Source: Gammaproteobacteria bacterium (GTDB lineage: Bacteria; Pseudomonadota; Gammaproteobacteria; CAIRSR01). Taken from it: DNA of 51,875 bases. The DNA is taken from contig CAUYTY010000055.1 in NCBI GenBank assembly GCA_963575655.1, positions 1-51,875 on the forward strand. Reading direction: 5' to 3'. The notes below the pieces were generated by a model. It searched no databases and was not told the origin of the DNA. It worked only from the letters and a program-made list of their open reading frames with translations. Below are positions 7,461 through 51,510 of this stretch, piece after piece. The position numbers and the translations under genes are program-made. How positions within the stretch are numbered: the stretch's first letter is position 1; each line of letters begins with the position of its first letter.

Positions 7461-7553
7461 TAACCCAAGTTGCTACCTATGCGGTGAGAAATGAAGAAGC
7501 CCCTCTCCCTGAGGGAGAGGGGAGAAAAGCGCGCTAGGTGGCAACTTGGGTTA
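7461..7553. mobile_element. Family B MITE, copy 1
   Basis: 93 bp bounded by TAACCCAAGTTGCTACCTA on the left and TAGGTGGCAACTTGGGTTA on the right. The core has GCGGTGAGAAATGAA followed by a short hairpin CCCCTCTCCCTGAGGGAGAGG. There is no coding capacity. It lies between recD2 and the REP-like region. Confidence 0.85.
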
Positions 7554-7714
7554 CTTACGAACTCTGTGACCTCCTGCCGTAGCTCCTTGGTAGCTACTGA
7601 ACGCAAGGGAGAAGAAAATTCTACCGCCTGAGAAAAGCCCTACCTTGACATTCGCCACGCAGTTCACGAAAACTCTGGAGGAAAAGGGGAAAATGGCGGA
7701 ACACTCGGCTATCC

Positions 7715-7995
7715 ATTCACGCCGCGACAATTTGCAAAAGTTAGGCTAGCGCCGCGTAGCGGCCTAATAATCTTAGCCGTGGATTTCAACTCATAATTGA
7801 AGCAGTTACTCCGTTTGTTGTGTGGCGACGATTGAATTAACCCGGTGGTTTTGATCACGGATTCCAATCGAGTGACCAAGCTCGATATGGAAGGCATGAG
7901 TTCAATCGTCGCGATGCGACGATGAGAACCTCCCATTTTAGCCGTGGATTGAAACCCACGGCTAAATTCATTACACGCGCTACGCGGTAGTTGTT
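7715..7995. repeat. REP-like palindromic cluster
   Basis: This gene-free stretch contains a hairpin at 7938-7965 with a 10-bp stem (TTAGCCGTGG / CCACGGCTAA) and an 8-base loop. A half copy of the same unit is at about 7772 (TTAGCCGTGGATTTCAACTC). Inverted arms close to GGCGACGATTGAATT lie near 7826 and 7902-7916. Short GCGCTACGCG and CGCCGCGTAGCGG palindromes lie at the edges. Hairpins of this kind often belong to REP/RAYT families; no RAYT transposase gene is in the window. Confidence 0.6.
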
Positions 7996-8083
7996 ATCCT
8001 GGTAGTTTTTTTAACCGAGACATACCTAATGCTCAAGTTATAAAATTCCTGTGTGGATAGTCAGTAAGCCCGAACGTACAGCC

Positions 8084-8329
8084 TCACAATTTTTTGTGAC
8101 TGCCATCGCACAACACACCATTGTGACCGTGTTTGCACGCGCAGAAATAGGTAGTTCCCGTCTCTTCCGCTTTATATTCTACCGGGACGAAGTCTGTGCC
8201 TTGGTGGTTGCCGTCGCAAAATGGTTGGGTCTTACTCTTACCGCAAGAACACCACCAATAGCTTTTGCCTGCCTCCACATCAACCGCACACGGTGACTTT
8301 TGGGCAATAACAGGAGTTTTGTCGGTCAT
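8084..8329 (-). CDS. Double-CDGSH iron-sulfur protein
   Basis: An 81-residue protein with two CDGSH-type [2Fe-2S] sites. The first has Cys27 and Cys29 (WCSCGKSKTQPFCDGNH), Cys38 and His42. The second has Cys63 and Cys65 (FCACKHGHNGVLCDGSH), Cys74 and His78. Each site has the three-Cys, one-His ligation of mitoNEET relatives. Bacterial two-site forms of this size are soluble, and their role in redox or iron-sulfur transfer is not settled. The gene lies just downstream of hisG on the same strand with a gap of about 60 bp, but no functional link to histidine synthesis is known. All eight ligands are present. Confidence 0.9.
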   Translation of the reverse strand: MTDKTPVIAQKSPCAVDVEAGKSYWWCSCGKSKTQPFCDGNHQGTDFVPVEYKAEETGTTYFCACKHGHNGVLCDGSHKKL

Positions 8330-8392
8330 GATTGGTATCTTCGCTTTAATTGATTAATGGATTGGTTGAACAGCAGATCATTCTCGATAACT

Positions 8393-9265
8393 TTATACCA
8401 ACTTACGCAACTCATATTCCAGAATACCCTGGGCCCCTGCTTCCACTAAGCGCGGCATGAGATTGCGGACGGCATCGCGGTCAATCACCGTTTCTACCGC
8501 CAACCAATTACCGCCATAGAGGTGGCTCACGGTTGGTGAATGGAGGCTTGGGAGCAGAGCCACGATGGCCTCCAAACGGTTATCGGGAATATTCATCTTG
8601 AGTGCCACCTTGTGGCGGGCGACTAAGGCAGCTTGGAGCAACAGGGCAATCTGCTCGATCTTGGCACGCTTCCAGGGATCAGCCAGCGATTCGCGGTTGG
8701 CTATGAGTTGAGTATGGGTATGGAGCAGATCGCAGACGATGCGCAACCCGTGGGCGCGGATCGTGCTGCCGGTCTCGGTGATCTCCACGGCCGCATCGAC
8801 CAGACCTTCTACTACTTTGGCCTCCGTCGCCCCCCAAGAGAATTCGACGGCTGCATTAATTCCGCGTGTTTCCAGATAACGCTTGGTAAATCCCACCAAC
8901 TCCGTGGCCACCTTCTTACCCTGCAGGTCTTCCACGGTCCGCACTGGCGAGTCTTGCGCTACCACCAATACCCAGCGGGCTGGGGCATCTGAGCTTTTGG
9001 AATAGATCAAGTCGCACACCGGCACGACATCGGACTCGGTCTCCATTATCCAATCCAGGCCCGTGAGCCCCACATCCAGGGTGCCTCGTGCGACGTAGGG
9101 TCCCATCTCCTGAGAACGAACTAGCGAGCAAGAAAGCTCCGGGTCATTCACCGCCGGGAAATAGTTACGCGAACGCGGGCTGATGGTCCAACCCGCCTGA
9201 GCGAACAGCGATAACGTAGCCTCCTCCAGGCTGCCCTTAGGGATGCCAAGTTTGAGTTTGGACAT
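8393..9265 (-). CDS. hisG: ATP phosphoribosyltransferase, long form
   Basis: HisG joins ATP and PRPP in the first step of histidine synthesis. At 290 residues it is the long, self-sufficient form: a catalytic domain (start LKLGIPKGSLEEATLSLF, Tyr/Leu-rich core with GLTGLDWIMETESD, and ETGSTIRAHGLR for PRPP binding), followed by a C-terminal ACT-like HisG_C domain (from about 215) that mediates histidine feedback inhibition. It therefore does not need HisZ. The start ATG 9265 matches the family N-terminus. The rest of the his operon is not nearby; rpiA lies immediately upstream (gap of 13 bp to its stop at 9279), so the two may be co-transcribed. Both use or supply phosphoribose compounds. Confidence 0.95.
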   Translation of the reverse strand: MSKLKLGIPKGSLEEATLSLFAQAGWTISPRSRNYFPAVNDPELSCSLVRSQEMGPYVARGTLDVGLTGLDWIMETESDVVPVCDLIYSKSSDAPARWVLVVAQDSPVRTVEDLQGKKVATELVGFTKRYLETRGINAAVEFSWGATEAKVVEGLVDAAVEITETGSTIRAHGLRIVCDLLHTHTQLIANRESLADPWKRAKIEQIALLLQAALVARHKVALKMNIPDNRLEAIVALLPSLHSPTVSHLYGGNWLAVETVIDRDAVRNLMPRLVEAGAQGILEYELRKLV

Positions 9266-9278
9266 AGAATTTTTCCTC

Positions 9279-9935
9279 TTAAGTCAACGTTCGTATCCCA
9301 TCCTTACCCCCAAGAATGAGTACATCTGCAGGGCGACGGGCAAAAAGGCCATTGGTAACTACACCGGTGATTTGATTGAGTTCAGTCTCCAGCTTGGTTG
9401 GCTCCAAGATAGAAAGACCGTAGACATCCAAAATCACGTTACCGTTGTCGGTGGTAAAACCTACTCGATAGACGGGTTCACCACCCATCTTGACGATCTG
9501 ACGCGCCACGTAGGAACGGGCCATCGGAATTACTTCAATCGGCAAGGGAAACTTGCCAAGTACATCCACCAACTTGGATTCATCGGCGATACACACGAAC
9601 TTTTCGGCCACGGCAGCAACGATCTTCTCTCGGGTTAAGGCCCCACCGCCCCCCTTGATGAGGTGTAGGTGGCGAGTAGCCTCGTCGGCCCCATCCACAT
9701 AGACTGACATGCGGTTCACCATATTCAGGTCCAGAACCTCAATGTCGTGCCGCTTCAAGCGCTCCGCAGTGGCCACAGAAGAGGCCACCGCCCCGTCAAT
9801 CCGATACTTGATCTCAGCCAAACAGTCGACGAAGTGATTGGCAGTGGAGCCAGTGCCTATCCCGACGATACCGCCTTTGTCAACGTAGTCGAGTGCCGCT
9901 CGTGCGGCCGCTTTCTTCATGTCGTCCTGCGTCAT
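9279..9935 (-). CDS. rpiA: Ribose-5-phosphate isomerase A
   Basis: RpiA interconverts ribose-5-phosphate and ribulose-5-phosphate in the pentose phosphate pathway. The sequence shows [18 protein letters not shown] (phosphate loop), VYVDGADEA (active-site Asp residues), [14 protein letters not shown] (catalytic Glu/Lys region) and [10 protein letters not shown] chose ATG 9935 ([10 protein letters not shown]...), which matches the E. coli start MTQDELKKAV; a GTG three codons upstream (9944) is possible. The product has 218 residues, the normal length. It is divergent from ilvA, an arrangement common in gammaproteobacteria, with a family A MITE in the shared promoter region. Confidence 0.95.
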
Positions 9936-10092
9936 ACCACGCACCTATGTGTTTATTAGATGGTCGCGGATGATACAGTGTGCCGCGAAATTCGCAACCG
10001 GCTGCGGATCCTTGTTGTTAATAATTGTTTAGTTTTAATAAGCAACAATTTTGATTATTTAGAGGCTACTTACTGATGGCTCAGATTGATAA

Positions 10093-10192
10093 TAGACCTT
10101 GTTGGGAAACTCCCGAGAGTTAATTGTTATTCCGGTATTCCCTGCGGAATAACAAGACGATAATTAACGTTCGAGGTTTCCGATAATGTCTA
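10093..10192. mobile_element. Family A MITE, copy 2
   Basis: 100 bp. The left end TAGACCTTGTTGGGAAACTC and right end GAGGTTTCCGATAATGTCTA are imperfect inverted repeats starting and ending in TA. The core is itself an inverted repeat (GTTAATTGTTATTCCG against CGGAATAAC...ATAATTAAC). It occupies the rpiA-ilvA divergent promoter region, 106 bp before the chosen ilvA start, so it could affect either promoter. Confidence 0.75.
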
Positions 10193-10297
10193 AACCATTC
10201 CCGGAAAAAATCTAGGCGTAGGTATTTGTTCGATAGGTTCTGGAGGGATGAGGTGGGGACTAAACGATTACACAAGACTCTGCTACCGTGTCGCCCC

Positions 10298-11812
10298 ATG
10301 ATCGATACCTACGTCAAACACATCCTCCTCGCTCGTGTCTACGACGTGGCCCGCGAGACCCCCCTCGACCCTGCGCCACGCCTCTCGGCACGCCTTGCCA
10401 ATCATGTTTTGCTCAAACGTGAGGACCTCCAAAGCGTCTTCTCATTCAAACTACGCGGGGCCTATAACCGCATTTATCACATGCCATCTGAGGATCGGGT
10501 ACGGGGGGTTATCACTGCCTCAGCCGGTAACCATGCGCAAGGGGTGGCCCTGGCCGGTCAGCGTCTAGGGGTTCGCACCCTCATCGTTATGCCCAAAACC
10601 ACGCCCGACATCAAAGTTCGTGCGGTGCGCAACCTGGGGGGCGAGATTGTGCTGCACGGCAACACCTATGACGATGCCTATACCCACGCCCGCGAACTAG
10701 CTGCGGTCGAGGGAATGACCTTCATCCACCCCTATGATGACCCGCTGGTCATTGCCGGTCAGGGTACCGTGGCCATGGAGGTGCTTCGTCAGCACCCTGA
10801 CTCGCTCCACGCCATCTTCGTCCCGGTCGGGGGCGGTGGGCTTATTGCTGGGATTGCTGCCTACGTCAAAGCCCTGCGCCCCGAGATCAAAGTCATTGGG
10901 GTAGAGCCTGAGGATGCCGCTTGTTTGCACGCCGCCCTCGCCGCCGGGCAACGGGTGGACCTGGGGCAAGTGGGTATATTTGCCGACGGGGTTGCAGTAC
11001 GTCAGATCGGAGAAGAACCCTTTCGCATTGCGCGTGAGTTTGTTGACGAGGTGGTACTGGTAACTACGGATGAGATCTGTGCCGCCATCAAGGATATTTT
11101 CGACGATACCCGCTCCATCGCCGAACCCGCCGGAGCCTTGGGGATCGCTGGACTCAAGCGTTACGTCGCGAACAGTGGCATCACCGGACAGGCCCTGGTG
11201 GCCATCGACTCGGGGGCCAACACCAACTTCGACCGCCTGCGCCACATCGCCGAACGTGCCGAGTTGGGAGAGCACCGCGAGGCGTTGTTCGCCGTTATCA
11301 TCCCCGAACGTCCTGGGAGTTTTCGTACTTTCTGCGAGTCTATTGGTTCGCGCGGCATCACCGAGTTCAATTACCGCTACGCTGATTCGGTGCGGGCGGT
11401 GGTCTTCGTGGGCGTACAGTTGCGCCACGGCAACGAGGAACGTATCCAACTTAACGCCCGTTTGCGTGATGCCGGCTATGCCGTTACCGACCTGACCGAC
11501 AACGAAATGGCCAAGCTTCATGTGCGTTATCTGGTGGGCGGACACGGTAGCGGGGTAACCGACGAAGTCCTCTATCGCTTTGAATTTCCAGAACGTCCTG
11601 GCGCCCTGTTGCGCTTTCTCAGCTATCTGGGGGGGCGCTGGAACATTAGCCTATTCCATTACCGCAACCACGGTGCCGCCTACGGGCGAGTGCTCATGGG
11701 CTGCCAGGTCCCACCCGCTGAACGCGAGGAATTTGGCCGATTTCTGAAGGATATCGGCTACGCGTATGTGGATGAAACCAACAACCCCGCTTATCGATTA
11801 TTCCTAAATTAA
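10298..11812 (+). CDS. ilvA: Threonine ammonia-lyase, biosynthetic
   Basis: IlvA deaminates threonine to 2-oxobutanoate, the first committed step to isoleucine. The 504-residue product has an N-terminal PLP domain (SFKLRGAYNRI with the Schiff-base Lys, SAGNHAQGVA, the glycine loop VPVGGGGLIAG) and two C-terminal ACT-like regulatory repeats, beginning FAVIIPERPGSF and YRFEFPERPGAL. The tandem ACT-like pair is the mark of the isoleucine-inhibited biosynthetic enzyme. I chose ATG 10298 (MIDTYVKHILLARVYDVA), which fits the family; the open frame extends 24 codons further up without homology. It is followed after 18 bp by the YecA-like gene, so the two may share a transcript. Confidence 0.95.
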   Translation: MIDTYVKHILLARVYDVARETPLDPAPRLSARLANHVLLKREDLQSVFSFKLRGAYNRIYHMPSEDRVRGVITASAGNHAQGVALAGQRLGVRTLIVMPKTTPDIKVRAVRNLGGEIVLHGNTYDDAYTHARELAAVEGMTFIHPYDDPLVIAGQGTVAMEVLRQHPDSLHAIFVPVGGGGLIAGIAAYVKALRPEIKVIGVEPEDAACLHAALAAGQRVDLGQVGIFADGVAVRQIGEEPFRIAREFVDEVVLVTTDEICAAIKDIFDDTRSIAEPAGALGIAGLKRYVANSGITGQALVAIDSGANTNFDRLRHIAERAELGEHREALFAVIIPERPGSFRTFCESIGSRGITEFNYRYADSVRAVVFVGVQLRHGNEERIQLNARLRDAGYAVTDLTDNEMAKLHVRYLVGGHGSGVTDEVLYRFEFPERPGALLRFLSYLGGRWNISLFHYRNHGAAYGRVLMGCQVPPAEREEFGRFLKDIGYAYVDETNNPAYRLFLN

Positions 11813-11830
11813 TGGCGGAGAGAAAAAACC

Positions 11831-13192
11831 ATGATGACCCCCTTCGATGCCTTTCGACGCGTACTCGCCGAATTACATATCCATCCTATCGAGCGCAGCC
11901 CGGTAATGTTGCACGGCTATCTGACTGGTTGGGCATTAGCACCGACCAACGGTGACACCGATTATCCCTTTCTACAAAATCTGCTGGGTCTACCCGATGA
12001 TGCAGAATTCGCGCTATTACCCACGACTTTGGAAAGGGTGGTAGTAGAATGTCTGGAAACTTTCCATGATGCACTCCGTAAGGGAAAATTTTCACCAGAG
12101 TTATATTCCTCTACCGGTGGTCGCTGCCAAACTGAGGTGTGGTGCCAGGGATTCGCGGAAGCGGTAGCAGTAGCCGAAGATGCCTGGGAGATTCTCACGC
12201 TCGAAAATACGGCCCTGACTCAACAACTCGTTACCCTTCAATTGTTGTCCGATTCCGACCTTTACGCGCAACTCATGAAGCGTTCGAAATCCACGCACAC
12301 GGATTTTGTTCGAGAAATGACTGAAGTTCTTCCTGCATTAATTGACGTTATTGCTGGCCACGTCTATACCGGTGGTAGTGACGCCCATGAGGTGAAACTC
12401 CCTCAATTCGACCCCGAGGAATTGGCCGCCTTGGATGAACCCGACCTTATGGAGATTCTCGTTACCCTGGAGGATCGTGTTCCCCGCGTAGTCATTGATA
12501 CCTGCGTGGCCCGTGGTGCAGAGTTTCTTCCCTGGCTACGCACCCATTTGGAGGGGGAGCGCCATTGGTCCACTGAACAGGCAACTCCTGCCGAATTTTG
12601 GGGACTGCTCCACAGTGTCATGATCCTGGGCCTAATGGACAGCCCTCAAGCCGCAGAATTGCTTTTAGAAGTTTTTGCACGCATGACCCGACAACCCGAG
12701 CATGACCTGTGGGCATGGCTCGGAAATCACTGGGCTGCGCTCTTTCACAATAAGAGGGTGGGTGTCGAACCTTTCGTCTCAATTGCCTGGGGAAAACATA
12801 TTGCCGCATTAGCCCGGGGAGAGGCAATGGCGTGTATGGTCGCTGCGGTGGCTGTCGGACCATCTCAACAATTGGAGAAGTTGCTAGACCAATTGGCTAC
12901 GATAGCTGCGGACCCCATGGAGGAAAATATTCTGCGCGTGCGGGTAGCGGATCTCCTCCTTTTCTTTCCTCGGGAACGTTATCGAGACTTGCTCTTGGCA
13001 CTGGCCCGCCTTCAAATGGAAGACTCGGCATTGGTCTATGTCGCATTCGATGAAGACGATGTGGCTACAGTATTCCAGGAGGGTGATACCCCGTTTTGGG
13101 ATAGCGATCCGTGGTCTTTCTACGACCCTGATGAAATCACTATCCGCCAGCTTTCCAACAATGACGCAGCCAACGAAGGGGATGCCTGGTAA
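11831..13192 (+). CDS. YecA/UPF0149-type domain fused to a DUF1186-like helical domain
   Basis: A 453-residue, acidic, soluble protein. The N-terminal part (about 15-180) has the UPF0149 (YecA/YgfB) pattern: MLHGYLTGWALAP near 26, LPTTLERVVVECLETFHDAL, and the WCQGFAEAV motif near 103. From about 190 it continues as helical repeats (ALDEPDLMEILVTLEDRVPR, then WGLLHSVMILGLMDSPQAAE and LRVRVADLLLFFPRERYRD) resembling DUF1186 or HEAT-like domains. There is no signal peptide or membrane helix, so it is cytoplasmic. The function is unknown; YgfB/YecA proteins are linked to regulation. A GGAGAG ribosome site precedes ATG 11831. It lies 18 bp after ilvA. The fusion assignment is inference from motifs. 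Confidence 0.6.
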   Translation: MMTPFDAFRRVLAELHIHPIERSPVMLHGYLTGWALAPTNGDTDYPFLQNLLGLPDDAEFALLPTTLERVVVECLETFHDALRKGKFSPELYSSTGGRCQTEVWCQGFAEAVAVAEDAWEILTLENTALTQQLVTLQLLSDSDLYAQLMKRSKSTHTDFVREMTEVLPALIDVIAGHVYTGGSDAHEVKLPQFDPEELAALDEPDLMEILVTLEDRVPRVVIDTCVARGAEFLPWLRTHLEGERHWSTEQATPAEFWGLLHSVMILGLMDSPQAAELLLEVFARMTRQPEHDLWAWLGNHWAALFHNKRVGVEPFVSIAWGKHIAALARGEAMACMVAAVAVGPSQQLEKLLDQLATIAADPMEENILRVRVADLLLFFPRERYRDLLLALARLQMEDSALVYVAFDEDDVATVFQEGDTPFWDSDPWSFYDPDEITIRQLSNNDAANEGDAW

Positions 13193-13304
13193 AAGCGGTG
13201 AATGAAGTCCATACCCGGATTACGGCCATGAACAAGATGGTCTATCTGGGTATGCCTGTTTCTGTACGAGTAGAGGGAATTCCACCTGTGCGTAGTGCAG
13301 AGAT

Positions 13305-13471
13305 TAGACATTATCGGAAACCTCACCCCCCAACCCCCTCTCCTTAACAGGAGGGGGGAGAATTATTCCGTTGTTATGCTTAACTCCTGGACGGAACAGG
13401 CAAAAAATCTCCCCCTCTCCTGTTAAGGAGAGGGGGGCGGGGGTGAGGTTTTGGGTTTCCGATAATGTCTA
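13305..13471. mobile_element. Family A MITE, copy 3
   Basis: 167 bp with ends TAGACATTATCGGAAACC and GGTTTCCGATAATGTCTA, flanked by TA. The core is a long hairpin: CCTCACCCCCCAACCCCCTC and its near complement GAGGGGGGCGGGGGTGAGG enclose CTCCTTAACAGGAG-like repeats. The core differs from copies 1 and 2, so ends are conserved while cores are not. Confidence 0.8.
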
Positions 13472-13490
13472 TTATCCATGCACTAACAAC

Positions 13491-13513
13491 CCGCATAGGT
13501 GATAACTTGAGTT
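13491..13513. repeat. Solitary right end of family B
   Basis: CGCATAGGTGATAACTTGAGTTA matches the right terminal repeat of family B (TAGGTAGCAACTTGGGTTA) with a few changes. No left end is found upstream, so it is a truncated copy. It lies next to family A copy 3, just before the chemotaxis gene. Confidence 0.55.
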
Positions 13514-13592
13514 ACCTATGGCGCGAAATACCAGAAACGTTATAGCTCTACGAGGGCTATTCACTTACTCTGCAATCGATAGAGATCTTTTA

Positions 13593-15179: not shown

Positions 15180-15241
15180 GCCACTACCCTAACCGGGAGT
15201 ACCGGAGTGACGGTTAACTCCCGGGAGGTTTTCGAATATGC

Positions 15242-16444: not shown

Positions 16445-16526
16445 GAATTTCTTGAACAGTTGGTGGTAAATCGTGTGGAATGTGTTTTTCGGATGAAACC
16501 GGCACAAGCCCCCCCTTAACCGTCGA

Positions 16527-16680: not shown

Positions 16681-16772
16681 TAACCAAAGTTGCCACCTAT
16701 GCGGCGAGAAACGAAAACCCCTCTCTCGGAGGGAGAGGGGGAGAAAGGCGCGCTAGGTAGCGACTTGGGTTA
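16681..16772. mobile_element. Family B MITE, copy 2
   Basis: 92 bp; left end TAACCAAAGTTGCCACCTAT, right end TAGGTAGCGACTTGGGTTA. The core is very close to copy 1: GCGGCGAGAAACGAAAA, then a CCTCTC...GAGAGG hairpin and GGCGCGC. It ends three bases from the stop codon of the PotD-like gene. Confidence 0.85.
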
Positions 16773-17967: not shown

Positions 17968-18058
17968 CTGGTTCAAATGCGGTGAGAAACGAAAAGCTCT
18001 CTCCCTCCTGGAAAGGGGCATTTTCGTTCTTCATCGCATAGGCAGCAACTTTGGTTAA
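17968..18058. mobile_element. Family B MITE, degenerate copy
   Basis: The right half (GGCAGCAACTTTGGTTAA) and part of the core (ATGCGGTGAGAAACGAAAAG, CTCTCTCCCTCC) match copies 1 and 2, but the left end is eroded to CTGGTTCAAATGCGG. It lies between the PotD-like and PreP-like genes. Confidence 0.65.
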
Positions 18059-21072: not shown

Positions 21073-21120
21073 TAACTCAAGTTGCTACCTATGGTCTGAT
21101 TCAATTCCTTGAGTTGTAAC
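21073..21120. repeat. Family B left end, partial copy
   Basis: TAACTCAAGTTGCTACCTATGG matches the family B left end. The expected right end is reduced to something like TTCCTTGAGTTGTAAC at about 21106-21120. It lies just downstream of the aroB stop codon. Confidence 0.55.
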
Positions 21121-25063: not shown

Positions 25064-25136
25064 GTTTCAAAGCCAGAGCGTTGCCCTGGACTGATATACC
25101 AACGCGTCGTTGGTGTGTCTAAAGGTCACGACTCAC
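25064..25136 (+). repeat. 73-bp dispersed repeat, copy 1
   Basis: GTTTCAAAGCCAGAGCGTTG, then CCCTGGACTGATATACCAAC and so on to CTAAAGGTCACGACTCACC, aligns without gaps over most of its length to the complement of 26417-26489. A shorter related piece is at about 1815-1852. It is non-coding. The neighbouring stretch 24982-25496 contains no other feature I recognise. Confidence 0.7.
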
Positions 25137-25496
25137 CCCATCCGTATAACTTTACGCCGCTGGCCATCAGCACCATACGACCACATACCACGACTTCTGG
25201 TTTGAGCTCCTGATGTTTCACCGGTCACACGATGCGGGATCATCGCGGGATGCATTCCTACGCAGGGGCATGGAAACGATGACTAAGTAAACGAAGGCAC
25301 GAGTGAAGTGGATAGCCGAATCGTACCTTACCGTGGAGGAGGAGTCACTGCATGATGTGGTTTTGTCGGAATGAAGGCGCAATATCTTGCGTTTCTGATG
25401 CCGTTCTTCAAAAATTTCAGAGAACCGAAATGAGGTTGTGGTCGTCATTTTTGGGGATCATGATGCAGTTTTTTAGCAGCATTTTTCTTTTTCCCA

Positions 25497-25972: not shown

Positions 25973-26548
25973 TTGAACAGAGCCATTGTCGTCCGTTACC
26001 TTTCTCTCCAAGGGAGGAAAAGGGAACGGATGGCGAAGGGGTGTTATTCAGAATGAGTAAAGGGAGGCGTTGATATTGTGGCGGCTTTTTGCAGTGGGAC
26101 TGCCGCCTCACGCTGGTAACCTGGTCTACTCGTAGCACCGCACCCCAGTGCGGCGATTGACGGTGAGAAAGCGCAGCAAACCGCACTGGGGGCGGGCGCT
26201 TCCTCTGATTCTTTTTGTCTCCGCCGTTCTTCCATAAACTGGAAAGTGATTGGTTGAGGTAGCGTTTTCCCTCTGGCCGCATTCAAAGCGCAAAATAGCG
26301 AACAACTACATCACGTAGCGGATAACCAAGCATTGTTCTCGAAAACCTGAAAGGCATTTCAGGTCTCGACGTTTCTTATTCCATAACTGGTCATCCGCAT
26401 AAAGTCGCACAGACAGTGTGAATCGTGGCCTTTAGGCGCGCCAACGGCGCATCGGCACACCACCCCAGGGCAACGCTCCGGGTTTGAAGTTACTCCAGAA
26501 AAATCGTGCCCTGGAAGGGCGTGGATACGGCTAGAAGTAGTTCCCCTC
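25973..26548. other. Gene-free gap with an inverted repeat
   Basis: No protein is recognised. The segment 26135-26195 has CACCCCAGTGCGG and CCGCACTGGGGGCG as inverted arms about 30 bases apart, enclosing GATTGACGGTGAGAAAGCGC. The dispersed repeat copy 2 occupies 26417-26489. The remainder shows nothing I recognise. Confidence 0.5.
26417..26489 (-). repeat. 73-bp dispersed repeat, copy 2
   Basis: On the minus strand it reads CTTCAAACCCGGAGCGTTGC, then CCTGGGGTGGTGTGCCGATG and on to CTAAAGGCCACGATTCAC, matching copy 1 at 25064-25136. The two copies are in opposite orientation about 1.3 kb apart and flank the H-NS family gene. Confidence 0.7.
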
Positions 26549-34758: not shown

Positions 34759-34879
34759 ATTGATTTTGGGGACAGCGGTGGAGGAGGGGGGAAGATGGAT
34801 AGAGGGGAGAAGGGACAGGGAGGCGACACGCAACCCGGGACTCCTACCCGGACCGCCCTCCGCAGTACCGCAAGTGGTA

Positions 34880-35075
34880 CCTTTGGGCCGGTCTCCGGGC
34901 TTACGACGGACCCCGAAAAAAACAGGGTCAGACCCACCGCCTTCCCGCGTATTGTGCAGTGGCTTGTCGGGTGGGTCTATTCGTCGTCTACCGTTGCGGG
35001 GGCAGCGCCGGCATCGTCCCCATAAGGACCTACCGGACTTCCCGTTTAATCCCATCGTGCGCGACACCAGTTGTG
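34880..35075 (-). promoter_or_regulatory. Cobalamin riboswitch
   Basis: On the minus strand the order of conserved blocks is that of a B12 riboswitch: TTAAACGGGAAGTCCGGT, GCCGGCGCTGCCCCCGCAAC, GGTAGACGACG, AAGCCACTGC, GCGGGAAGGCGGTGGG, then the B12 box AAGCCCGGAGACCGGCC at 34886-34902. The box is a full match to the consensus. It lies about 150 bases upstream of btuB in the same direction. Cobalamin binding should lower btuB expression. Confidence 0.95.
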
Positions 35076-35246
35076 TCGGGTAATGGCACGGAAATTAGGC
35101 GTAATTATCGCCCAATGTCGGGACACCCAAGGCGGGCGCAATGTACGGGCATCCGCATCACAGTGTCAATGATGCTTAGGCGGCCATCGGCGGGTATTTT
35201 GATGGATCGGTTGGATGGTTTACGTCCCCATGCCCCTGGATTCCGA

Positions 35247-40248: not shown

Positions 40249-40398
40249 TAACCTAAGTTGCCACCTACTTGCCCCCCTCCCCAGTCCTCCCCGTAAACGG
40301 GGAGGGAGTAGGCCGCAGACCTCCCCCCGTTTACGGGGGGATTGAGGGGGGACGATTGGATGCGATCCCGAATTTTGAATAGGTGGCAACTTGGGTTA
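40249..40398. mobile_element. Family B MITE, copy with a GC hairpin core
   Basis: 150 bp; ends TAACCTAAGTTGCCACCTA and TAGGTGGCAACTTGGGTTA. The core is CTTGCCCCCCTCCCCAGTCC followed by a pair of hairpins around CCCCGTAAACGGGG and CCCCCCGTTTACGGGGGG. The flanking decamer TTAACAAATA occurs on both sides (40241-40250 and 40396-40405), overlapping the ends, and may be a target duplication. The same left half restarts at 51485. Confidence 0.85.
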
Positions 40399-43549: not shown

Positions 43550-43785
43550 CAATCCTAACGTAACCATTCACTCCCAACGGCGTATGAATCAACCATTGAG
43601 TAAGTGGGACCCGAGGCCCTTTCCATAGCTGGCGATGCACCACGTGTCCTAATCTGGGGCACTCCCTGCCGCCACCTAGTGATAGGATTGTTTCCAGAAA
43701 TCGCTTAAATTGTTAGTAGCCATTGAATAACCGTGGACAATGTCTGCTGATGGCAGTTCTTCACGTAGCATGACGAGGTGATGTT

Positions 43786-44418: not shown

Positions 44419-44569
44419 CGTAATCTGAATCGTTACCTGGCAAGCTATAGGGCACCATTCCGACGTTACTCTGCCGAAATGATATAGCTAGCAATTCGAG
44501 TTAACGTACAGGCGTTATTAAGAACTCTGAAGACCAGTCGATTGTATTATCTATCAGGAGATCCAGATC

Positions 44570-44839
44570 ATGTTGCACAAAATATTGGCGGTTTTTGCCT
44601 TGATCAGTGTACTGTTCTTTTCGGTGGGAGCAGCAGGCGCAGCCGATAAATTTTTTACGCCGCAACCTCAAGGCACCCCATCCGGGACAACCTCGGGTGG
44701 TCGTTTAGCAACACCGCAGGGATCTACTGACCCGCAAAAGAAAGACGAGGCCGTTAAAAATCGCACCAACAACAATCCTTCCTCCTCCCGAAGACCTGCA
44801 ACGAATGTGGGCGGAAGTACCATTGGTCCAGGAACCTAA
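44570..44839 (+). CDS. Small secreted Ser/Pro/Gly-rich protein
   Basis: An 89-residue frame with a clean signal peptide (residues 1-25: MLHKILAVFALISVLFFSVG, AAGAA-D) and a mature part of about 64 residues that is rich in Gly, Ser, Thr, Pro and Asn, with no Cys or aromatic residues after FF. It looks disordered. A strong AGGAGAT ribosome site 9 bases before ATG 44570 supports translation. No family is recognised. It precedes leuC by about 200 bp but is probably unrelated. Confidence 0.6.
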   Translation: MLHKILAVFALISVLFFSVGAAGAADKFFTPQPQGTPSGTTSGGRLATPQGSTDPQKKDEAVKNRTNNNPSSSRRPATNVGGSTIGPGT

Positions 44840-45044
44840 CCTGGAACAGGTAGTAAAATAGCAATCGTTCATTCCCTCTCCTCACGAGAGAGGAAGGCGA
44901 TTATGTAATAATGAACCGCAATGATCGTTTTGTCAAATTCTGGGGTGTCTGTTAGATTTTCCCAGAAATGATGCTGACCAAACGTATGATTGTCTTTCTT
45001 GTTTCTGACTATCGCTAGTAACAAATCCTCTGAAGAGTCTCTCA

Positions 45045-46460
45045 ATGGCCGGAAAAACCCTCTACGACAAAATCTGGGACGCCCATGTAGTGCGTACCGA
45101 ATCCGATGGCACCACCCTCCTCTATATCGACCGTCATCTCATTCACGAGGTGACTTCACCGCAGGCATTTGAGGGCCTGCGCCTTGCAGGGCGTCGGCCG
45201 TGGCGGGTGGAAACAAGTCTGGCTGTGGCGGACCACAATGTCCCCACTACCGACCGCAGCGTAGGTATTGCCGACCCCGTCTCTCGACTTCAGGTAGAAA
45301 CCCTAGCCGAGAATTGTGCCCATTTCGGCATCACCGAGTTTCGTATGGACGACCCACGCCAAGGCGTTGTCCATGTAGTAGGCCCGGAACAAGGGTCAAT
45401 TCTACCGGGAATGACGGTGGTATGCGGAGATTCTCATACAGCCACCCATGGGGCCTGTGGCGCGCTTGCTTTCGGTATTGGTACCTCGGAGGTAGAGCAT
45501 GTCCTGGCTACCCAGTCGCTTGCCCAGAAGAAATCAAAAAATCTGCGCGTTCAAGTTAACGGAAAATTACCCGCTGGTGTTACGGCAAAAGATCTCATCC
45601 TCGCCGTAATTGGGCGTATTGGTACGGCCGGTGGTACCGGTTACGCCATGGAATTCGCTGGTCCCGCTATTGAGGATCTATCCATGGAAGGGCGCATGAC
45701 GGTGTGCAATATGGCCATTGAGGCCGGGGCACGAGCTGGATTAGTGGCGGTAGACGATAAGACTGTCGAATATTTTAATGGTCCAGGTATCCATCGACCC
45801 TACGCCCCACGCGGAGATATACAAGAGCGTGCCGTGGCCGCCTGGCGTGAATTACGCTCTGATTCCGATGCAGTATTCGATAGAGTGGAGATAATAGATG
45901 CAGCTACTCTGAGCCCACAAGTAACTTGGGGGACCTCGCCGGAAATGGTAGTTGCCGTAGAGGGGCAAGTTCCCGACCCTGCCGCCGAATCCGATCCAAT
46001 CAAGCGTGCGGGTCTAGAACGGGCACTTGCCTATATGGGGCTGGCCGCTAATACCCCCATCTGTGATATCTCCGTGGACAAGATTTTTATCGGCTCCTGC
46101 ACCAATGGACGTATTGAGGATCTACGTGCTGCTGCCGCTGTGATCCGTGAACAAAAGGTGGCCGCGACGGTCAAATTGGCCTTGGTGGTACCGGGTTCGG
46201 GATTGGTGAAAGCCCAAGCAGAGGCCGAGGGATTGGATGTAATTTTCCGCTCTGCTGGTTTTGAATGGCGCGCGCCGGGCTGTTCGATGTGTTTGGCAAT
46301 GAATGCAGACCGATTGGAGCCAGGAGAGCGTTGTGCCTCCACCTCCAATCGTAATTTTGAGGGGCGCCAGGGTCCCGGTGGACGTACTCACCTAGTGAGT
46401 CCGGCCATGGCCGCCGCTGCCGCAATTGCTGGACATTTCGTGGATGTTCGAAAGATGTAA
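45045..46460 (+). CDS. leuC: 3-isopropylmalate dehydratase, large subunit
   Basis: LeuC with LeuD isomerises 2-isopropylmalate to 3-isopropylmalate in leucine synthesis. The 471-residue aconitase-type protein starts [16 protein letters not shown]. It shows [40 protein letters not shown], and the three [4Fe-4S] ligands in [11 protein letters not shown] and [13 protein letters not shown], followed by [19 protein letters not shown]. Length is normal. It is the first of leuC-leuD-leuB; a family B MITE separates it from leuD, and leuA is not in the window. Confidence 0.97.
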
Positions 46461-46473
46461 TGGTAGCGTTAGA

Positions 46474-46558
46474 TAATTCAACTTGCTGCCTATCCGTCAT
46501 TCCGTTGCTCTCTACCGGAATGACGGTCCGGAAGTTTGCTAGGTAGCAATTTGAGTTA
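46474..46558. mobile_element. Family B MITE between leuC and leuD
   Basis: 85 bp; ends TAATTCAACTTGCTGCCTA and TAGGTAGCAATTTGAGTTA. The core is a hairpin CGTCATTCCG...CGGAATGACG, not the CCTCTC core of copies 1 and 2. It starts 14 bases after the leuC stop and ends 36 bases before the leuD start, so it lies inside the operon and would be part of the mRNA. Confidence 0.85.
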
Positions 46559-46594
46559 ACGTAAGAAAGCGAAAAAACGAGGATAAAACCAAAG

Positions 46595-47236
46595 ATGCAA
46601 CCATTTACGACCCTTGACGGCCTCGTGGTACCGCTCGACCGCGCCAACGTGGATACCGACGCCATCATCCCCAAGCAGTTCTTGAAATCAATCCGGCGTA
46701 CCGGATTTGGGCCTTACCTTTTTGATGAATGGCGCTATCTAGATCACGGCGAACCGGATATGGACTGTACCTCTCGTCCGCGTAATCCTGATTTCGTCCT
46801 CAACCAGCCCCACTACCAAGGCGCGCAGGTACTCTTGGCGCGGGCCAATTTCGGTTGTGGATCAAGTCGCGAGCATGCCCCCTGGGCCATCGCCGATTAC
46901 GGTTTGCGTGCCCTAATCGCCCCATCCTTTGCTGATATTTTCTACAATAACTGTTTCAAAAACGGTTTGTTGCCGATTATTTTGACCGAAGAAATCGTGG
47001 ATCGATTATTCTGTGAGCTAGCAAAAACAATTGGAGGCTATCGGTTGCAGATCGATCTTACGACCCAAACGATTACCGCGCCGGGGTGGGGGACGATTTC
47101 CTTTTCTATTGACCCACATCGTCGTCATTGTTTGTTGCACGGTCTCGATGATATCGAATTAACGTTGCAGCACGCCAAAGTCATTCGTGCCTACGAGGCC
47201 CGTCGGCGGTTAGAGGCGCCGTGGTTGTTTTCCTAA
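46595..47236 (+). CDS. leuD: 3-isopropylmalate dehydratase, small subunit
   Basis: LeuD is the swivelling domain of isopropylmalate isomerase. The 213-residue protein shows [39 protein letters not shown], the active-site [40 protein letters not shown] and LLPI. Length is typical of the proteobacterial form. A MITE occupies most of the gap to leuC, so if the genes are co-transcribed the element is in the message; an AACGAGGATAAA stretch serves as ribosome site. Confidence 0.97.
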
Positions 47237-47288
47237 GCCAGAACGTAAGAAACGCCATCAAAAGATTTTTAATCTTAAAGGGTAACGC

Positions 47289-48380
47289 ATGACTTGCAAG
47301 ATTCTTGTACTGCCGGGTGACGGTATTGGTGTTGAGATCATGGCTGAGGCCGTGAAGATTATCGAGGTACTACGTGCGGAATTTGGTTTTAGCGTAGAGA
47401 TCGAGACCGCCTTGGTGGGCGGGGCGGCAATTGATGCTACCGGTCACCCTCTCCCGGAAGAGACCCTACGTCTCGCTAAGAATTCCGATGCGGTTTTATT
47501 AGGTGCGGTGGGTGGCCCTAAATGGGAACCATTACCCTACGCCGTTCGTCCCGAACGTGGTTTGCTTGGTCTACGGGCTGAATTGGGATTGTTTGCTAAT
47601 CTCCGACCGGCCATTTTGTATCCTCAACTCGCGGCAGCGTCTACCCTGCGTCCTGAGGTAGTGGCAGGGCTCGACATTATGATTGTGCGCGAGCTAACTG
47701 GTGGTCTTTATTTTGGGCAGCCACGCGGCGTGCGCACTTTAGAGAGTGGTGAACGCCAAGGCTTCAATACCCTGGTCTATAGTGAATCCGAGATTGAACG
47801 TATTGGTCGGGTTGCTTTTGAGATTGCTCGTAAGCGTGGACGGAAGGTCTGCTCGGTGGACAAGGCCAATGTATTGGAGTGTACCGAATTCTGGCGCGAG
47901 ATTATGATCCGGACGCATCAGAATTACCCAGACGTGGCACTGACCCATATGTATGTGGACAATGCAGCAATGCAGTTGGTGCGCAATCCTCGCCAGTTCG
48001 ATGTAATGGTTACCGAAAATATGTTCGGTGACATTCTCTCGGACGCCGCTGCCATGCTCACTGGTTCGATTGGAATGCTGCCCTCGGCCTCTTTGGATGC
48101 CCACGGCAAGGGTATGTACGAACCCATTCACGGCTCCGCACCAGATATTGCAGGGAAAGGTATTGCCAATCCCCTTGCTACCCTCCTGTCGGTGGCCATG
48201 ATGTTGCGTTATACCCTAAATCTTCCTGATTTGGCCACGCGTTTGGAGGGAGCGGTGGGGGCAGTATTGGATGCTGGATTGCGTACTGGTGATATTTATA
48301 CCGAAGGTTGCCGGCGGGTAGGTACTGGAGAAATGGGCGATGCCATGGTGGCTGCTTTACGGGGTGTAGCCGTGGGTTAA
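47289..48380 (+). CDS. leuB: 3-isopropylmalate dehydrogenase
   Basis: LeuB oxidises and decarboxylates 3-isopropylmalate with NAD+. The 363-residue protein has [40 protein letters not shown], the substrate Arg residues in [33 protein letters not shown], the signature [20 protein letters not shown], and [17 protein letters not shown]. It starts 52 bp after leuD and completes the leuCDB set. Confidence 0.97.
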
Positions 48381-48405
48381 GTTTTTGGCTACCACAAAGT
48401 TACGG

Positions 48406-48493
48406 TAACCCAACTTGCTACCTATGGATCAATTCAACTGTCATTCCGGCAGGGATTGTCTGCCGGAATGGCGAATAGATGGCAACTTCGGTA
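48406..48493. mobile_element. Family B MITE between leuB and lptF
   Basis: 88 bp; left end TAACCCAACTTGCTACCTAT, right end ATAGATGGCAACTTCGGTA. The core is GTCATTCCGGCAGGGATTGT and CTGCCGGAATGGC, again a CATTCCGG-type hairpin as in the leuC-leuD copy. It ends 30 bases before the lptF start codon. Confidence 0.8.
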
Positions 48494-48523
48494 AACGATT
48501 ATGGTCCGCTACTGATCGCCCCT

Positions 48524-49636
48524 ATGATCATCGATCGCTATATTGCCCGAGAAATCACTCATACCCTGCTTGCCGTATTTGGCATCCTCATGGTGATTCT
48601 GATTAGTCACCAATTTGTCCGCTACCTAGCTGATGCCGCAGCGGGAGAGGTTCCTGGGGATATGCTTTTGGTGTTGATTGGACTCAAGGCGATTAGTTTT
48701 GCGGGGTTAGTGCTGCCGCTCTCCTTATTCCTATCAGTAATTATCGGATTGGGTCGATTCTACCGAGATAGCGAGATGGTGGTAATGGCCGCTTGTGGTA
48801 TTGGTCCGTTGCAAATCCTGAAAAGCGTGATGCGTACTGCGGTTATGGTGGGGATAGTTTTGGCGGTCCTCTCTCTGTATTTCAATCCCTGGGCGGCAGA
48901 GCAAAAATCACGGTTTTTGGATCAGGCTCGAGCCAAACCCGAGTTGTCTGGGATCACCTCTGGTCGTTTTCAAGAATCGAACCGAGGGGAGACTGTCTAC
49001 TTCGCGGAACGTTTGAATCCAGACGGCGCCTTGGAAAACGTTTTTATCCAGTATCGCCGATCTGGAGGGATTAGTGGCATTTTAGCTGCGGCTCGTGGCC
49101 ATCAAGAGGTAGACCCTCATAGCGGAAATCGATATTTGGTTTTAGTCGATGGTCACCGTTACGAGGAACCCGCAGAGGGAAATGAATTTCGTACGATGAG
49201 TTATGGACGACACGGGGTTGCTATTCCGTCGCCGCATGTTGAGACGGGAGGGCGTAAACGTGAGGCGATGCCTACCTTTCAATTGCTTACCTCGAATTTA
49301 CGAGAAGATCGGGCGGAGCTCCAGTGGCGTTGGTCGTTGCCACTTTCCGCCATTTTGTTTGCGGCCCTTGGTGTCCCTCTTAGTCACAGTACCCCACGCG
49401 AAGGACGTTACGGGAAATTGTTCACCGGGATCTTAGTCTATCTCGTATTCAGCAATCTATTGAGTGTCGCACGTAATTGGATGGATCGCGGGACTGTTCC
49501 CGTCGAATTGGGGTTATGGTGGGTCCATGGATTGCTACTAATCCTGGTGATGGTTATGATGGTGGGGGCAAAGGGATTGCGAACCTTACGGGAACGGTTA
49601 CATCCCCGAAAGATTTTCTCACCTACCGCTTCTTGA
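48524..49636 (+). CDS. lptF: LPS export permease LptF
   Basis: A 370-residue inner-membrane subunit of the LptB2FG exporter. The start MIIDRYIAREITHTLLAVFG matches E. coli LptF (MIIIRYLVRETLKSQLAILF), so I use ATG 48524 and not the open extension upstream, which lies in the MITE. Other matches are FVRYLADAAAGEVPGDMLLV, LPLSLFLSVIIGLGRFYRDS, EMVVMAACG, a periplasmic beta-jellyroll (about 130-245) and the C-terminal helices with AALGVPLSHSTPREGRYGKL. The usual partner lptG does not follow; the next gene is unrelated. Confidence 0.95.
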   Translation: MIIDRYIAREITHTLLAVFGILMVILISHQFVRYLADAAAGEVPGDMLLVLIGLKAISFAGLVLPLSLFLSVIIGLGRFYRDSEMVVMAACGIGPLQILKSVMRTAVMVGIVLAVLSLYFNPWAAEQKSRFLDQARAKPELSGITSGRFQESNRGETVYFAERLNPDGALENVFIQYRRSGGISGILAAARGHQEVDPHSGNRYLVLVDGHRYEEPAEGNEFRTMSYGRHGVAIPSPHVETGGRKREAMPTFQLLTSNLREDRAELQWRWSLPLSAILFAALGVPLSHSTPREGRYGKLFTGILVYLVFSNLLSVARNWMDRGTVPVELGLWWVHGLLLILVMVMMVGAKGLRTLRERLHPRKIFSPTAS

Positions 49637-49771
49637 GACGTTCAACGTTTTTGAAACATTCGGACTTGTTCCTTACGACCGTTCTAATTCCGCGATGATG
49701 CGATTTATTCCGCGCTGCATCCTACGCGGTGCTGCGCTATATAACCAAACTGACCGCGAAAATCAAATAAC

Positions 49772-50266
49772 TTGAATAGATTATCCCGGCTATCTCATAA
49801 ATTTATCAGCTTTCTACGTCTGCCACGTTTTGAACAGATATGGTTATTCCCGGTTTGGTGTTTGTTGGGATTGAGTCGCCTGGTGATTCTGACCGTTCAA
49901 TTTCCTCGCTTGGCGACATGCCTGGGTGTCCATTTTGGTAATCAATCTGTAATACCGATATTGTCTACTAGCCAACAGATTCGGGCATTTCACATCGGCC
50001 GAGTGGTACGGTTGACTGCTGGCTATACCCCTTGGGAATCTAATTGCTTCCCTCAGGCAGTAACTGCCCGTTTATTGCTTGGTTTGTATCGGATTCCCTA
50101 TGCCTTGTTTTTCGGGGTGGCAAAAAATGGAGAGAGTGAAATGGAGGCCCATGCCTGGGTAGCGGCAGGTCCGGTGCGAGTGACCGGTAGTGATGGTTTT
50201 TCAGGATTTACCGTGGTCGGGGTATTTGTCTCAAGAGGATCGATCGATGTTAGTGAAAAATTCTGA
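49772..50266 (+). CDS. Lasso-peptide B2-like cysteine peptidase (Transglut_core3), orphan
   Basis: A 164-residue protein with the architecture of lasso-peptide biosynthesis B2 proteins: an N-terminal helical part (LRLPRFEQIWLFPVWCLLGL, with LARL-like segments up to CLGVHFG), then a transglutaminase-type core with the catalytic Cys in WESNCFPQAVTARLLLG (Cys92) and the catalytic His in EAHAWV (His127), with an Asp in TGSDGF that may complete the triad. B2 removes the leader of a lasso precursor. No B1 recognition element, cyclase (asparagine-synthetase-like) or precursor gene is seen nearby. The only start is TTG 49772. The product may act on another peptide. Confidence 0.78.
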   Translation: MNRLSRLSHKFISFLRLPRFEQIWLFPVWCLLGLSRLVILTVQFPRLATCLGVHFGNQSVIPILSTSQQIRAFHIGRVVRLTAGYTPWESNCFPQAVTARLLLGLYRIPYALFFGVAKNGESEMEAHAWVAAGPVRVTGSDGFSGFTVVGVFVSRGSIDVSEKF

Positions 50267-50843
50267 GTAGAATTAAACTGTTGTCGGGTAATGCCGGTCC
50301 CGCTGAACCAAGATCTGACTAATCTCGAATCAAGCAACTCTACTTAGGCTGTTATCCATGGGGCGTTATTTTCCAACAACCTGCCAACCCGCCTCAATGG
50401 CGTCTACGGATAAATTAGCACCACAATTCCATTCAATGAAATACTCACATAGCTTTCATAAACTCAGCACGTAGGTCGACTGCGCGTTTTTTGAAAAGCA
50501 CAACACTTTGAAACATAAACGATTCGCGGAAAATCATGTTGGGCTTCCTTCGTTAGCTCAACCTACGCGCTGTCCGCAGCAAATCAATGTCCACCTCTAC
50601 CTCTGGTGAGATAGCAAAGGCTTCAGTTTTTTGATTGCTGGATGTGCCTGTGGCCCAGGTCACAGGACTATATTACCGTTCATTCAGATAGCCGTTGTCA
50701 AACGATCGTTGGTACCTGGGTGATTACAATTTAATTTACAAAAATTATCGCCGTTGGTTCGTTAGCACACAGATAACTTCGCGTTGGCCAGCTAAGCTTG
50801 TATTGGTTTTACTAGTAGTTGTTGTCACAGGAAGGGGAAAGTT
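50267..50843. other. Gap between the B2-like gene and the SCPU gene
   Basis: No gene is recognised. On the minus strand, 50540-50575 reads GTAGGTTGAGCTAACGAAGG then AAGCCCAACATG, like the widespread GTAGGTTGGGTTAGCG...CCCAACA repeat. Directly beyond it a short minus-strand frame (MIFRESFMFQSVVLFKKRAV...) runs about 30 codons and stops; I do not assign it. The 100 bases before 50844 must hold the SCPU promoter, but I see no convincing boxes. Confidence 0.45.
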
Positions 50844-51389
50844 ATGAAACGTAACCTAATATTCAAGGTAATGACTCGTAGTGCGTCCGCGGCGCTCGCC
50901 GTTTTCAGTTTGATTCTGGTAGGTTCAGCACAGGCCGCGACTAGTTCCGGGAGCCTGGTCGTCACCGCCACCATCGACGCGTCCTGCACGGTTTCCGCGA
51001 GTCCAATGGCGTTCGGTACCGTAGTCCCGGGTACCGTCAAGGACACCACATCCACAGTAACATCAAATTGCACCAACGGTACCACCTATACCGTTGATAT
51101 TGGTGATGGGCTCAACCACGGCGCGACCATCGGCTCAGGCGGCGAATATCGTCGCCAGATGGCTTCAGGTGCTAATTTGCTACGGTATGTGATTGCAAGT
51201 GACGCTACCTATGCAACCCATATCAACGCCACTTCACTCATCTCATACAACAACCTTTTGACATCCACAATAGGCGACAGTACCGATCAGACAACCATGA
51301 TTTATGGTCGCGTGATTGGTGCCGAATCTGCGTCTAAAGCGGCCGGTAGCTATTTAGATACCGTGGTCGTTACGATCTCCTTCTTATGA
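50844..51389 (+). CDS. Spore coat U (SCPU) domain secreted protein
   Basis: A 181-residue exported protein. The signal peptide ends near residue 31 (VGSAQA-A). The mature domain has the SCPU/CsuA-B pattern: SLVVTATIDASCTVSASPMA, FGTVVPG, STVTSNCTNGTTYTVDIGDG, and an ending YLDTVVVTISF. The two Cys in ATIDASCTV and SNCTNG probably form a disulfide. Such proteins are subunits of chaperone-usher pili of the Csu type or stand-alone coat proteins. A GGAAGGGGAAAG site precedes ATG 50844. Chaperone and usher genes would be expected downstream, where the readable sequence ends. Confidence 0.9.
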   Translation: MKRNLIFKVMTRSASAALAVFSLILVGSAQAATSSGSLVVTATIDASCTVSASPMAFGTVVPGTVKDTTSTVTSNCTNGTTYTVDIGDGLNHGATIGSGGEYRRQMASGANLLRYVIASDATYATHINATSLISYNNLLTSTIGDSTDQTTMIYGRVIGAESASKAAGSYLDTVVVTISFL

Positions 51390-51436
51390 GGTTCGAGATT
51401 CGTATCTCGTTTAAGCCTCAACCGCTTTTTTCCCTC

Positions 51437-51465
51437 ATCGTTCCCACGCTCAGTGTGGGAACGAT
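51437..51465. repeat. REP-like hairpin
   Basis: ATCGTTCCCAC-GCTCAGT-GTGGGAACGAT forms a perfect 11-bp stem. No T-run follows, so it is not a typical terminator. TCGTTCCCACGC...GTGGGAACGA is a widespread repeat in proteobacteria. It lies 48 bases after the SCPU stop. Confidence 0.8.
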
Positions 51466-51484
51466 TAACCGGATAGCCATATCG

Positions 51485-51510
51485 TAAACCCAAGTTGCCA
51501 CCTACTTGCC
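51485..51510. repeat. Family B left end at the start of the bad sequence
   Basis: AAACCCAAGTTGCCACCTAC followed by TTGCCC matches the left end and first core bases of the copy at 40249-40398. Directly after it the sequence turns into C and G runs, as if the GC hairpin core could not be read. Confidence 0.75.

Follow-up and report, generated by a model that had tools for sequence, protein, structure and literature searches.

Intrastrand triplex motifs consist of a C-rich/G-rich hairpin and, after it, a purine-rich third strand. They abound in bacterial genomes and have been linked to genome instability (PMC4666352, available excerpt). According to the same excerpt (Holder et al. 2015, PMC4666352), inverted pairs of these motifs undergo deletions that leave a hairpin, their origin is unclear, and transposase or integrase remnants were never found around them. 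The stretch analysed here ("the window") is 51,875 nucleotides of a Gammaproteobacteria bacterium (contig CAUYTY010000055.1, assembly GCA_963575655.1). It harbors a dense family of small inverted-repeat elements carrying the ends of IS982 insertion sequences (IS). The same ends enclose different cores, and one of those found in this genome, core A2, matches the known motif pair. With high probability, the elements are miniature inverted-repeat transposable elements (MITEs) that were moved in trans by a DDE transposase of the IS982 family and whose triplex-motif cores would have been captured.

Conserved ends, target duplications and an IS982 partner

The genomes compared are that of the window (G000, a 4.2-Mb draft assembly), one of the same genus (G001), one of another genus in the same family (G002), and a further one of the same family (G003). 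The end, ACCCAAGTTGCYACCTA, is 17-19 bp long and nearly always has TA before it. In the window, the 19-base end TAACCCAAGTTGCTACCTA is matched 11 times at three mismatches or fewer, against 0 expected from 100 shuffles; the conserved ends noticed in an earlier sequence-only reading are thus borne out, and the coordinates that it gave are correct. The whole G000 genome contains 268 + 265 = 533 ends at two mismatches or fewer (backward-read control, 0). Among 369 genomes of the class, ends (17 bases, at most one mismatch) are numerous in G000, G001, and G002 only, and copy numbers vary widely among relatives. A sample of ~691 kb of G000 (the window and 39 of 40 fetched stretches, L172 being left out for overlap) yields 243 ends at five mismatches or fewer and 76 inward-facing pairs; the stretches were picked where ends were listed, so elements are over-represented in the sample relative to the whole genome. 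All pairs except one are 73-350 bp long (75/76, below 400 bp and without a transposase gene). The remaining pair, of 1085 bp (L174:6553-7637), is an element with a single-hairpin core (A1) and ~1 kb of other DNA inside its hairpin loop. The window copies, with their core types (see next section), are the following.

7461-7553, plus strand: A1 element of 93 bp, IS982-type ends flanking a single CCCCTCTCCC/GGGAGAGGGG hairpin; no clean target duplication
16681-16772, plus strand: A1 element of 92 bp; no clean target duplication
17968-18058, plus strand: A1 relic, right end retained (18039-18057), left end unrecognisable; same arm twice, in inverted orientation
40249-40398, plus strand: B element of 150 bp, two C/G-rich hairpins (CCCTCCCCGTAAACGGGGAGGG, CCCCCCGTTTACGGGGGG), triplex motif, 9-bp target duplication TAACAAATA
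46474-46558, no strand assigned: C1 element of 85 bp, core a CATTCCG hairpin; triplex motif absent by scan
48406-48494, no strand assigned: C1 element of 89 bp, core a CATTCCGGCAG hairpin; triplex motif absent by scan
13491-13514, minus strand: single right end with an A1-type arm (CCGCATAGGT...), adjoining an element of a second end family
21073-21091, plus strand: single left end
51485-51600, plus strand: single left end of a B-like copy, core of long C and G runs
44485-44503, minus strand: decayed right end adjoining a CATTCCG-like core

Six two-ended copies had been proposed, five of which have two recognisable ends, the copy at 17968-18058 having its right end only. This copy is a fold-back product. 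The proposed single ends (13491-13514, 21073, and 51485) are confirmed, and the decayed end at 44485-44503 adds a further one. Near the contig end, the C/G runs of 51485-51620 reach 31 bases, either as a real expansion or as an assembly artefact. Judged against mechanically called open reading frames (ORFs) only, the copies lie between the larger ORFs, except for overlaps with short ORFs and with 16 bases of an ORF starting at 48479. At the gathering threshold of Rfam 15, the copies are unmatched, and the only match in the window is a cobalamin riboswitch (34869-35086, minus strand, 77.6 bits). Two inverted 101-nt arms (25066-25166 and 26388-26488; 74% complementary, 1.2 kb apart) are unrelated to the IS982-ended family.

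Target duplications were scored with an element boundary running from ACCC to GGGT. Perfect direct repeats of 5-9 bp flank 42 of the 55 pairs whose ends both have two mismatches or fewer (5 bp in 1, 6 bp in 31, 7 bp in 6, 8 bp in 3, and 9 bp in 1), the mostly 6-bp duplications having the form TANNTA. As TA adjoins each end, the duplications begin and end in TA, which can be read as target or as element. Over all 75 pairs below 400 bp, 44 show a duplication of at least 5 bp, versus ~3.8 for shuffled pairings of left and right flanks. Duplications are also found in 8 of 12 pairs of G001, its IS included. Target duplications of IS982 elements are variable, from 3 to 9 bp. In the window, just one of the five two-ended copies has a clean duplication, so this evidence comes mainly from elsewhere in the genome.

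The sequence-only reading had made mobility depend on empty sites, and related ones are found. The repeat flanking L063:19128 has three paralogous copies that are uninterrupted and lack the element. At L068:5036-7232 (G000:C192), an A2 element (L068:7006-7174) sits in one spacer of a CRISPR-like array of 27 identical 31-base repeats, of which 25 units are 74-80 bp long and one is 247 bp. Subtracting the 165-bp element and one 6-bp duplication from the 247-bp unit gives 76 bp; the evidence here is this restored unit length, because the spacers differ among units. Two other empty-site candidates (L071:18010 and L186:12703) were set aside as self-matches beside repeats. Immobile regulatory hairpins or transcription terminators kept by selection would also stand at intergenic sites, and like hairpins in Enterobacter have been proposed as terminators (PMC2869309, available excerpt), but duplications, empty sites, insertion into a CRISPR-like spacer, and the widely varying copy numbers among relatives make this scarcely credible. 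As a main explanation, regulatory hairpins are refuted; the elements may still have a regulatory effect as a secondary role.

The full-length element with the same ends and a transposase gene that the sequence-only reading looked for is present in the same-genus genome G001. It is 1209 bp long (locus L133:1172-2380, G001:C329), its end repeats have 1 and 2 mismatches, the direct repeat TAAAATTA stands on both sides, and it encodes a 272-aa ORF. This protein scores 189.2 bits against the NCBIfam model transpos_IS982 (NF033520; cut-off 130) and 61.7 bits against PF13612 (cut-off 27). In G002, one end of a related IS was found in at least 40 exact copies at contig edges, the number being a lower bound because 40 of the 150 candidates were scored. 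C-terminal transposase pieces of G002 are 79-90% identical to the G001 transposase, and 356 kb taken from its end-carrying contigs yielded no paired short element. G003 has neither the IS nor paired short elements. The three end-carrying genomes thus differ: the G002 sample has the IS alone, G001 the IS and MITEs, and G000 MITEs and a broken IS. Movement in trans by such a transposase would account for the gene-less copies. A further rival holds that the copies resemble repetitive extragenic palindromic (REP) elements and were moved as single-stranded hairpins by a tyrosine transposase, the ends being sequence context only. Their strong hairpin cores at intergenic sites would suit it, but the inverted ends held in common with a DDE IS982 element, the target duplications, and the IS982 homology render it extremely improbable.

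Other partners were considered and rejected. Another IS982 group of G000 (C51, C122, C188, and C195) shows 32-33% identity over the matched part; L129 and L134 lack such an end within five mismatches, which shows that it does not belong to the element shared by that group. IS630, suggested by the TA beside the ends, was dropped as 28 multi-copy IS630 loci lack the ends at a constant position; it is also disfavoured by duplications that are mostly of 6 bp, not TA alone. At the G000 loci L009-L036, a DDE_3 (IS630-type) transposase is present in 28 copies that all score identically, L011 and L012 being identical over 1150 bp. This set is a recent burst of another element in G000.

Exchanged cores and the intrastrand triplex motif

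Clustering of 76 cores (75 pairs and the window relic) at 40% distance gives A1 (39 cores), B (14), A2 (8), C1 (3), C2 (3), D1 (2), D2 (2), and 5 singletons. The alternative that all cores are diverged forms of one sequence, raised in the sequence-only reading, is not what clustering returns: it separates them. The three core types reported for the window stand, and the wider genome sample adds more. Core lengths are 48-62 nt for A1 (mostly 55), 110-113 nt for B, and 130-134 nt for A2. A1 and A2 have the same arms, A1 possessing one CCCCTCTCCC/GGGAGAGGGG hairpin and A2 two of them plus a spacer, and C-type cores are other hairpins. G001 carries both forms with diverged arms, 3 A1 and 6 A2 among 12 pairs by inspection. 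Of note, a MITE/IS chimera in G001 (L197:2078-2431) has an A2 core on its left and the 3' end of the IS982 gene on its right, which indicates that cores are able to recombine.

The cores were scanned for a hairpin with a third strand, accepting G on a GC pair and either A or T on an AT pair, tolerating no more than one bad triplet, and keeping the best motif per core. Motifs of at least 7 triplets occur in 7 of 8 A2 cores (9-10 triplets, the eighth having 6), in 14/14 B, 2/2 D1, and 2/2 D2 cores; none is found in 39 A1, 6 C1/C2, and 5 singleton cores, nor in 216 shuffles (at most four cores per cluster). The presence of two motifs each in B and D2 cores is a by-eye reading; for the B copy at 40249-40398, the scan gives the best motif only, and the third strand of the other hairpin was read by eye. 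Judged from their sequences, A2, B, and D are built like intrastrand triplex motifs, B and D sharing this design with A2 in a sequence different from that of the Holder motif. A2 itself consists of two facing motifs and matches the known class-wide motif pair. In the readable A2 loop pairs (5/8 in G000, 3/6 in G001; the remaining 6 are unreadable), one loop is TT and the other CCG (7) or CAG (1). The sequence-only reading knew of no named family with these ends; the ends are those of IS982, and core A2 corresponds to the triplex motif described by Holder et al. (2015).

The motif CCCTCTCCC-N-GGGAGAGGG-N-GGGTGAGGG occurs in 83 of the 369 class genomes, with up to 90 copies per genome (backward control, 0). 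Strict core-A2 matches number 24 in G000 and 32 in G001. Among the 369 genomes, motif and ends coincide only in this genus; elsewhere, the motif is found in genomes without these ends. The ends are present and the core-A motif absent in G002, and four further class genomes have one end match each, all four without the core-A motif. A B-like pattern is found in 23/369 class genomes, including G002 and G003; it is matched by backward controls in two genomes and hence is less specific. In the examined stretches of the two genomes of the genus, every strict A motif lies within 160 bp of an end (11/11 in G000, window left out; 9/9 in G001).

A scan of named genomes for paired ends, possibly not covering records close to the window, returned one locus, in a metagenome-assembled genome titled Armatimonadetes bacterium SJ283 (G369, 6.1 Mb), the record title being the sole basis of its Armatimonadetes assignment. 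This genome has 214 ends at three mismatches or fewer (backward control, 1). Thirty of its loci (L241, L282-L311 set) provide 20 distinct pairs enclosing GGGGCGCGAT-type hairpins, single or double by inspection, with longer nested cores of up to 445 bp total length. Five cores were scanned for triplex motifs: one reaches 10 triplets, one 7, and three have none. Duplications of at least 4 bp flank 9/20 pairs (shuffled mean 1.2, maximum 5). A frameshifted IS982 relic, 44-45% identical to the G001 transposase, has an end at 4 mismatches beside its C-terminus. Since the same ends hold different hairpins in G000 and, by record title, in another phylum, the requirement of the transposase (the ends) can be told apart from its cargo (the core).

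The sequence-only reading had offered a transposase recognising only the ends and captured hairpins as alternatives; IS982 ends, unrelated cores, and a main core that is end-free elsewhere support both together, capture being what we infer. The transposase would bind the ends only, cut there, and insert at TA-N(1-5)-TA, so that anything between two ends would travel. Motif pairs would have become enclosed by two IS982 ends through capture, and transposition would then have spread them. The abundant A1 would derive from A2 by loss of one hairpin and the spacer, a deletion of the kind reported for such pairs. A simpler proposal is that the copies are ordinary internal-deletion MITEs of IS982, with C- and G-rich palindromes that arose in place. 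MITEs formed in this way are known from IS982, as in MITECca01 of Cardinium (PMC9769881, available excerpt), and the A hairpin and B-core arm never occur away from ends in the sampled G000 DNA. Yet, by inspection, the IS and MITE cores share their ends only, and A2 matches in detail, including its TT and CCG second loops, a motif of 83/369 class genomes (control, 0). Palindromes arisen in place are therefore improbable.

Several observations weigh against the captured-MITE explanation. Neither a free A hairpin nor a free B-core arm was found in the G000 sample, where 62/62 and 14/14, respectively, have an end no more than 120 bp away; the source of capture is thus not seen there. Taken alone, the third-strand string GGGGTGAGGG has an end nearby in 18/22 cases. 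C-type hairpins, tried as free repeats and set aside, offer weak evidence of independent existence: TCATTCC lies more than 1 kb from an end in 64/132 cases, stricter patterns only in 6/28 and 1/6. Triplex formation by the cores would be a potential only, and the available excerpt of Holder et al. (PMC4666352) states that a stable triplex in vivo was not seen. As for mobility, 13 of the 55 good pairs have no clean duplication (9 TA only, 4 none), the copy at 40249-40398 is the sole one with a clean duplication among the five two-ended window copies, the TA-bounded form of the duplications is partly due to the chosen boundary, and some copies are segmental duplicates (L070/L071) and not independent. 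Lastly, the partner transposase of G000 is represented by one interrupted N-terminal fragment at a contig edge (63% identity, residues 1-103), which begins with the same end and is interrupted by the end of a different repeat. No intact partner was found in G000, a draft in which absence is unproven; it is intact in G001. Most copies are thus probably stranded today.

Triplex motifs between other ends

A second family of ends in G000, TAGACMTTATCGGAAACC, is TA-flanked and forms 23 pairs of two element sizes. Twelve are 100-102 bp long with a core lacking triplex potential, and 11 are 167-169 bp long with facing C/G-rich hairpins and best motifs of 7-11 triplets. Copies in the window lie at 881-981, 10093-10192, and 13305-13471, with many more across the genome sample. 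The last of them is the supporting element that adjoins the single end at 13491-13514.

13305-13471, no strand assigned: element with ends TAGACATTATCGGAAACC, two facing C/G-rich hairpins, best triplex motif of 11 triplets

In other class genomes, the flanks of 108 motif loci from 25 genomes, taken among the matches listed, were searched for inverted repeats with motif-like arms excluded. Repeats scoring at least 13 were found at 9/108 loci versus 0.92 expected when flanks of different genomes were combined, and those scoring at least 14 at 7/108 versus 0.35 (7 versus ~0.2 in a smaller set of 49 loci). An initial by-eye reading, that free motifs elsewhere have no shared inverted ends, is wrong for some of them according to this test with mismatched-flank controls. 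Locus L242 (G048) is bounded by CACTACTGTCCCATAAAC ends, and its 9-bp direct repeat, GGTTAGGGG, is clean. L264, L268, and L269 (G084) are dispersed copies with ends AACCTATCTCAAAAT and 95-96% identity over ~240 bp. By eye, L281 (G188) is like the G048 element and has a near-perfect 9-bp repeat. At least four sets of ends therefore hold the motif: those of IS982, TAGACMTTATCGGAAACC (G000), CACTRCTGTCCCATAAAC with a 9-bp direct repeat (G048), and AACCTATCTCAAAAT (G084). The other 99/108 loci have no such inverted repeats within 300-350 bp. Under the rule used, L242 alone among the best ten has a clean direct repeat, and two of these ten, L233 and L322, are long repeats for which a different cause is conceivable. 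With 99/108 loci showing nothing and one clean repeat in ten, most free motifs are not accounted for.

These loci bear on a reversed direction of events, in which class-wide motifs are the remains of MITEs with decayed or lineage-different ends, the motif having always been a transposon core. It would agree with two unrelated end families carrying triplex motifs in G000, with the excess of inverted repeats (9/108 versus 0.92), the 9-bp repeat of L242, and the three dispersed 240-bp copies of G084, and with an origin that Holder et al. call unclear (PMC4666352, available excerpt). The 99 loci without inverted repeats, the single clean direct repeat among the best ten, the other possible cause for L233 and L322, and the lack of transposase remnants beside the motifs of Holder et al. 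(PMC4666352, available excerpt) speak against it, and it is rather unlikely. A broader proposal is that bacterial miniature transposons carry triplex-motif pairs as a general passenger whatever their ends, unrelated ends having taken up such pairs repeatedly. The folded core would perhaps join the two ends or stall replication and thereby favour transposition. This proposal is tentative and, on balance, doubtful; if true, free motifs would be passengers or remains of MITEs, and the question of their spread would be answered.

Known systems

Among described IS982 MITEs, MITECca01 from the Cardinium symbiont of Oedothorax gibbosus is similar in being short, IS982-ended, without a transposase gene, and mostly intergenic, with a very high copy number (169) and its parental IS present (PMC9769881, available excerpt). 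It differs in its size (~240 bp), in having arisen beside the ends of its parental IS (ISCca4), and in its organism, and neither triplex motifs nor core exchange are reported in the excerpt (PMC9769881). The core-A hairpin is also that of the Enterobacter sp. 638 palindrome CCCTCTCCCXX(X)GGGAGAGGG, which has one hundred copies; the available text describes no ends for it and presumes a role in termination (PMC2869309). The Correia/NEMIS repeats of Neisseria are likewise small inverted-repeat elements of two sizes differing by an internal segment (PMC2229807, available excerpt). Their ends and core are different. To our knowledge, they are not IS982 elements.

Core A2 has its counterpart in the TM/TMECO repeats of Holder et al., which have the order CCCTCTCCC-loop-GGGAGAGGG-loop-GGGTGAGGG and two second-loop types (TTA and CCG) paired in inverted orientation, with deletions leaving a hairpin, as A1 looks relative to A2 (PMC4666352, available excerpt). 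In contrast, TM/TMECO are described there as free-standing and without mobility functions (PMC4666352), and the motif pair here lies at the core of a transposable element, complete with ends and target duplications. No report of triplex motifs inside a MITE was found in the open-access literature by title and abstract start. While MITEs of IS982 are already known, the new part thus appears to be a widespread triplex repeat as their cargo. A triplex motif pair inside an element with a named transposase family makes the spread of the motif testable at the bench and by genome search.

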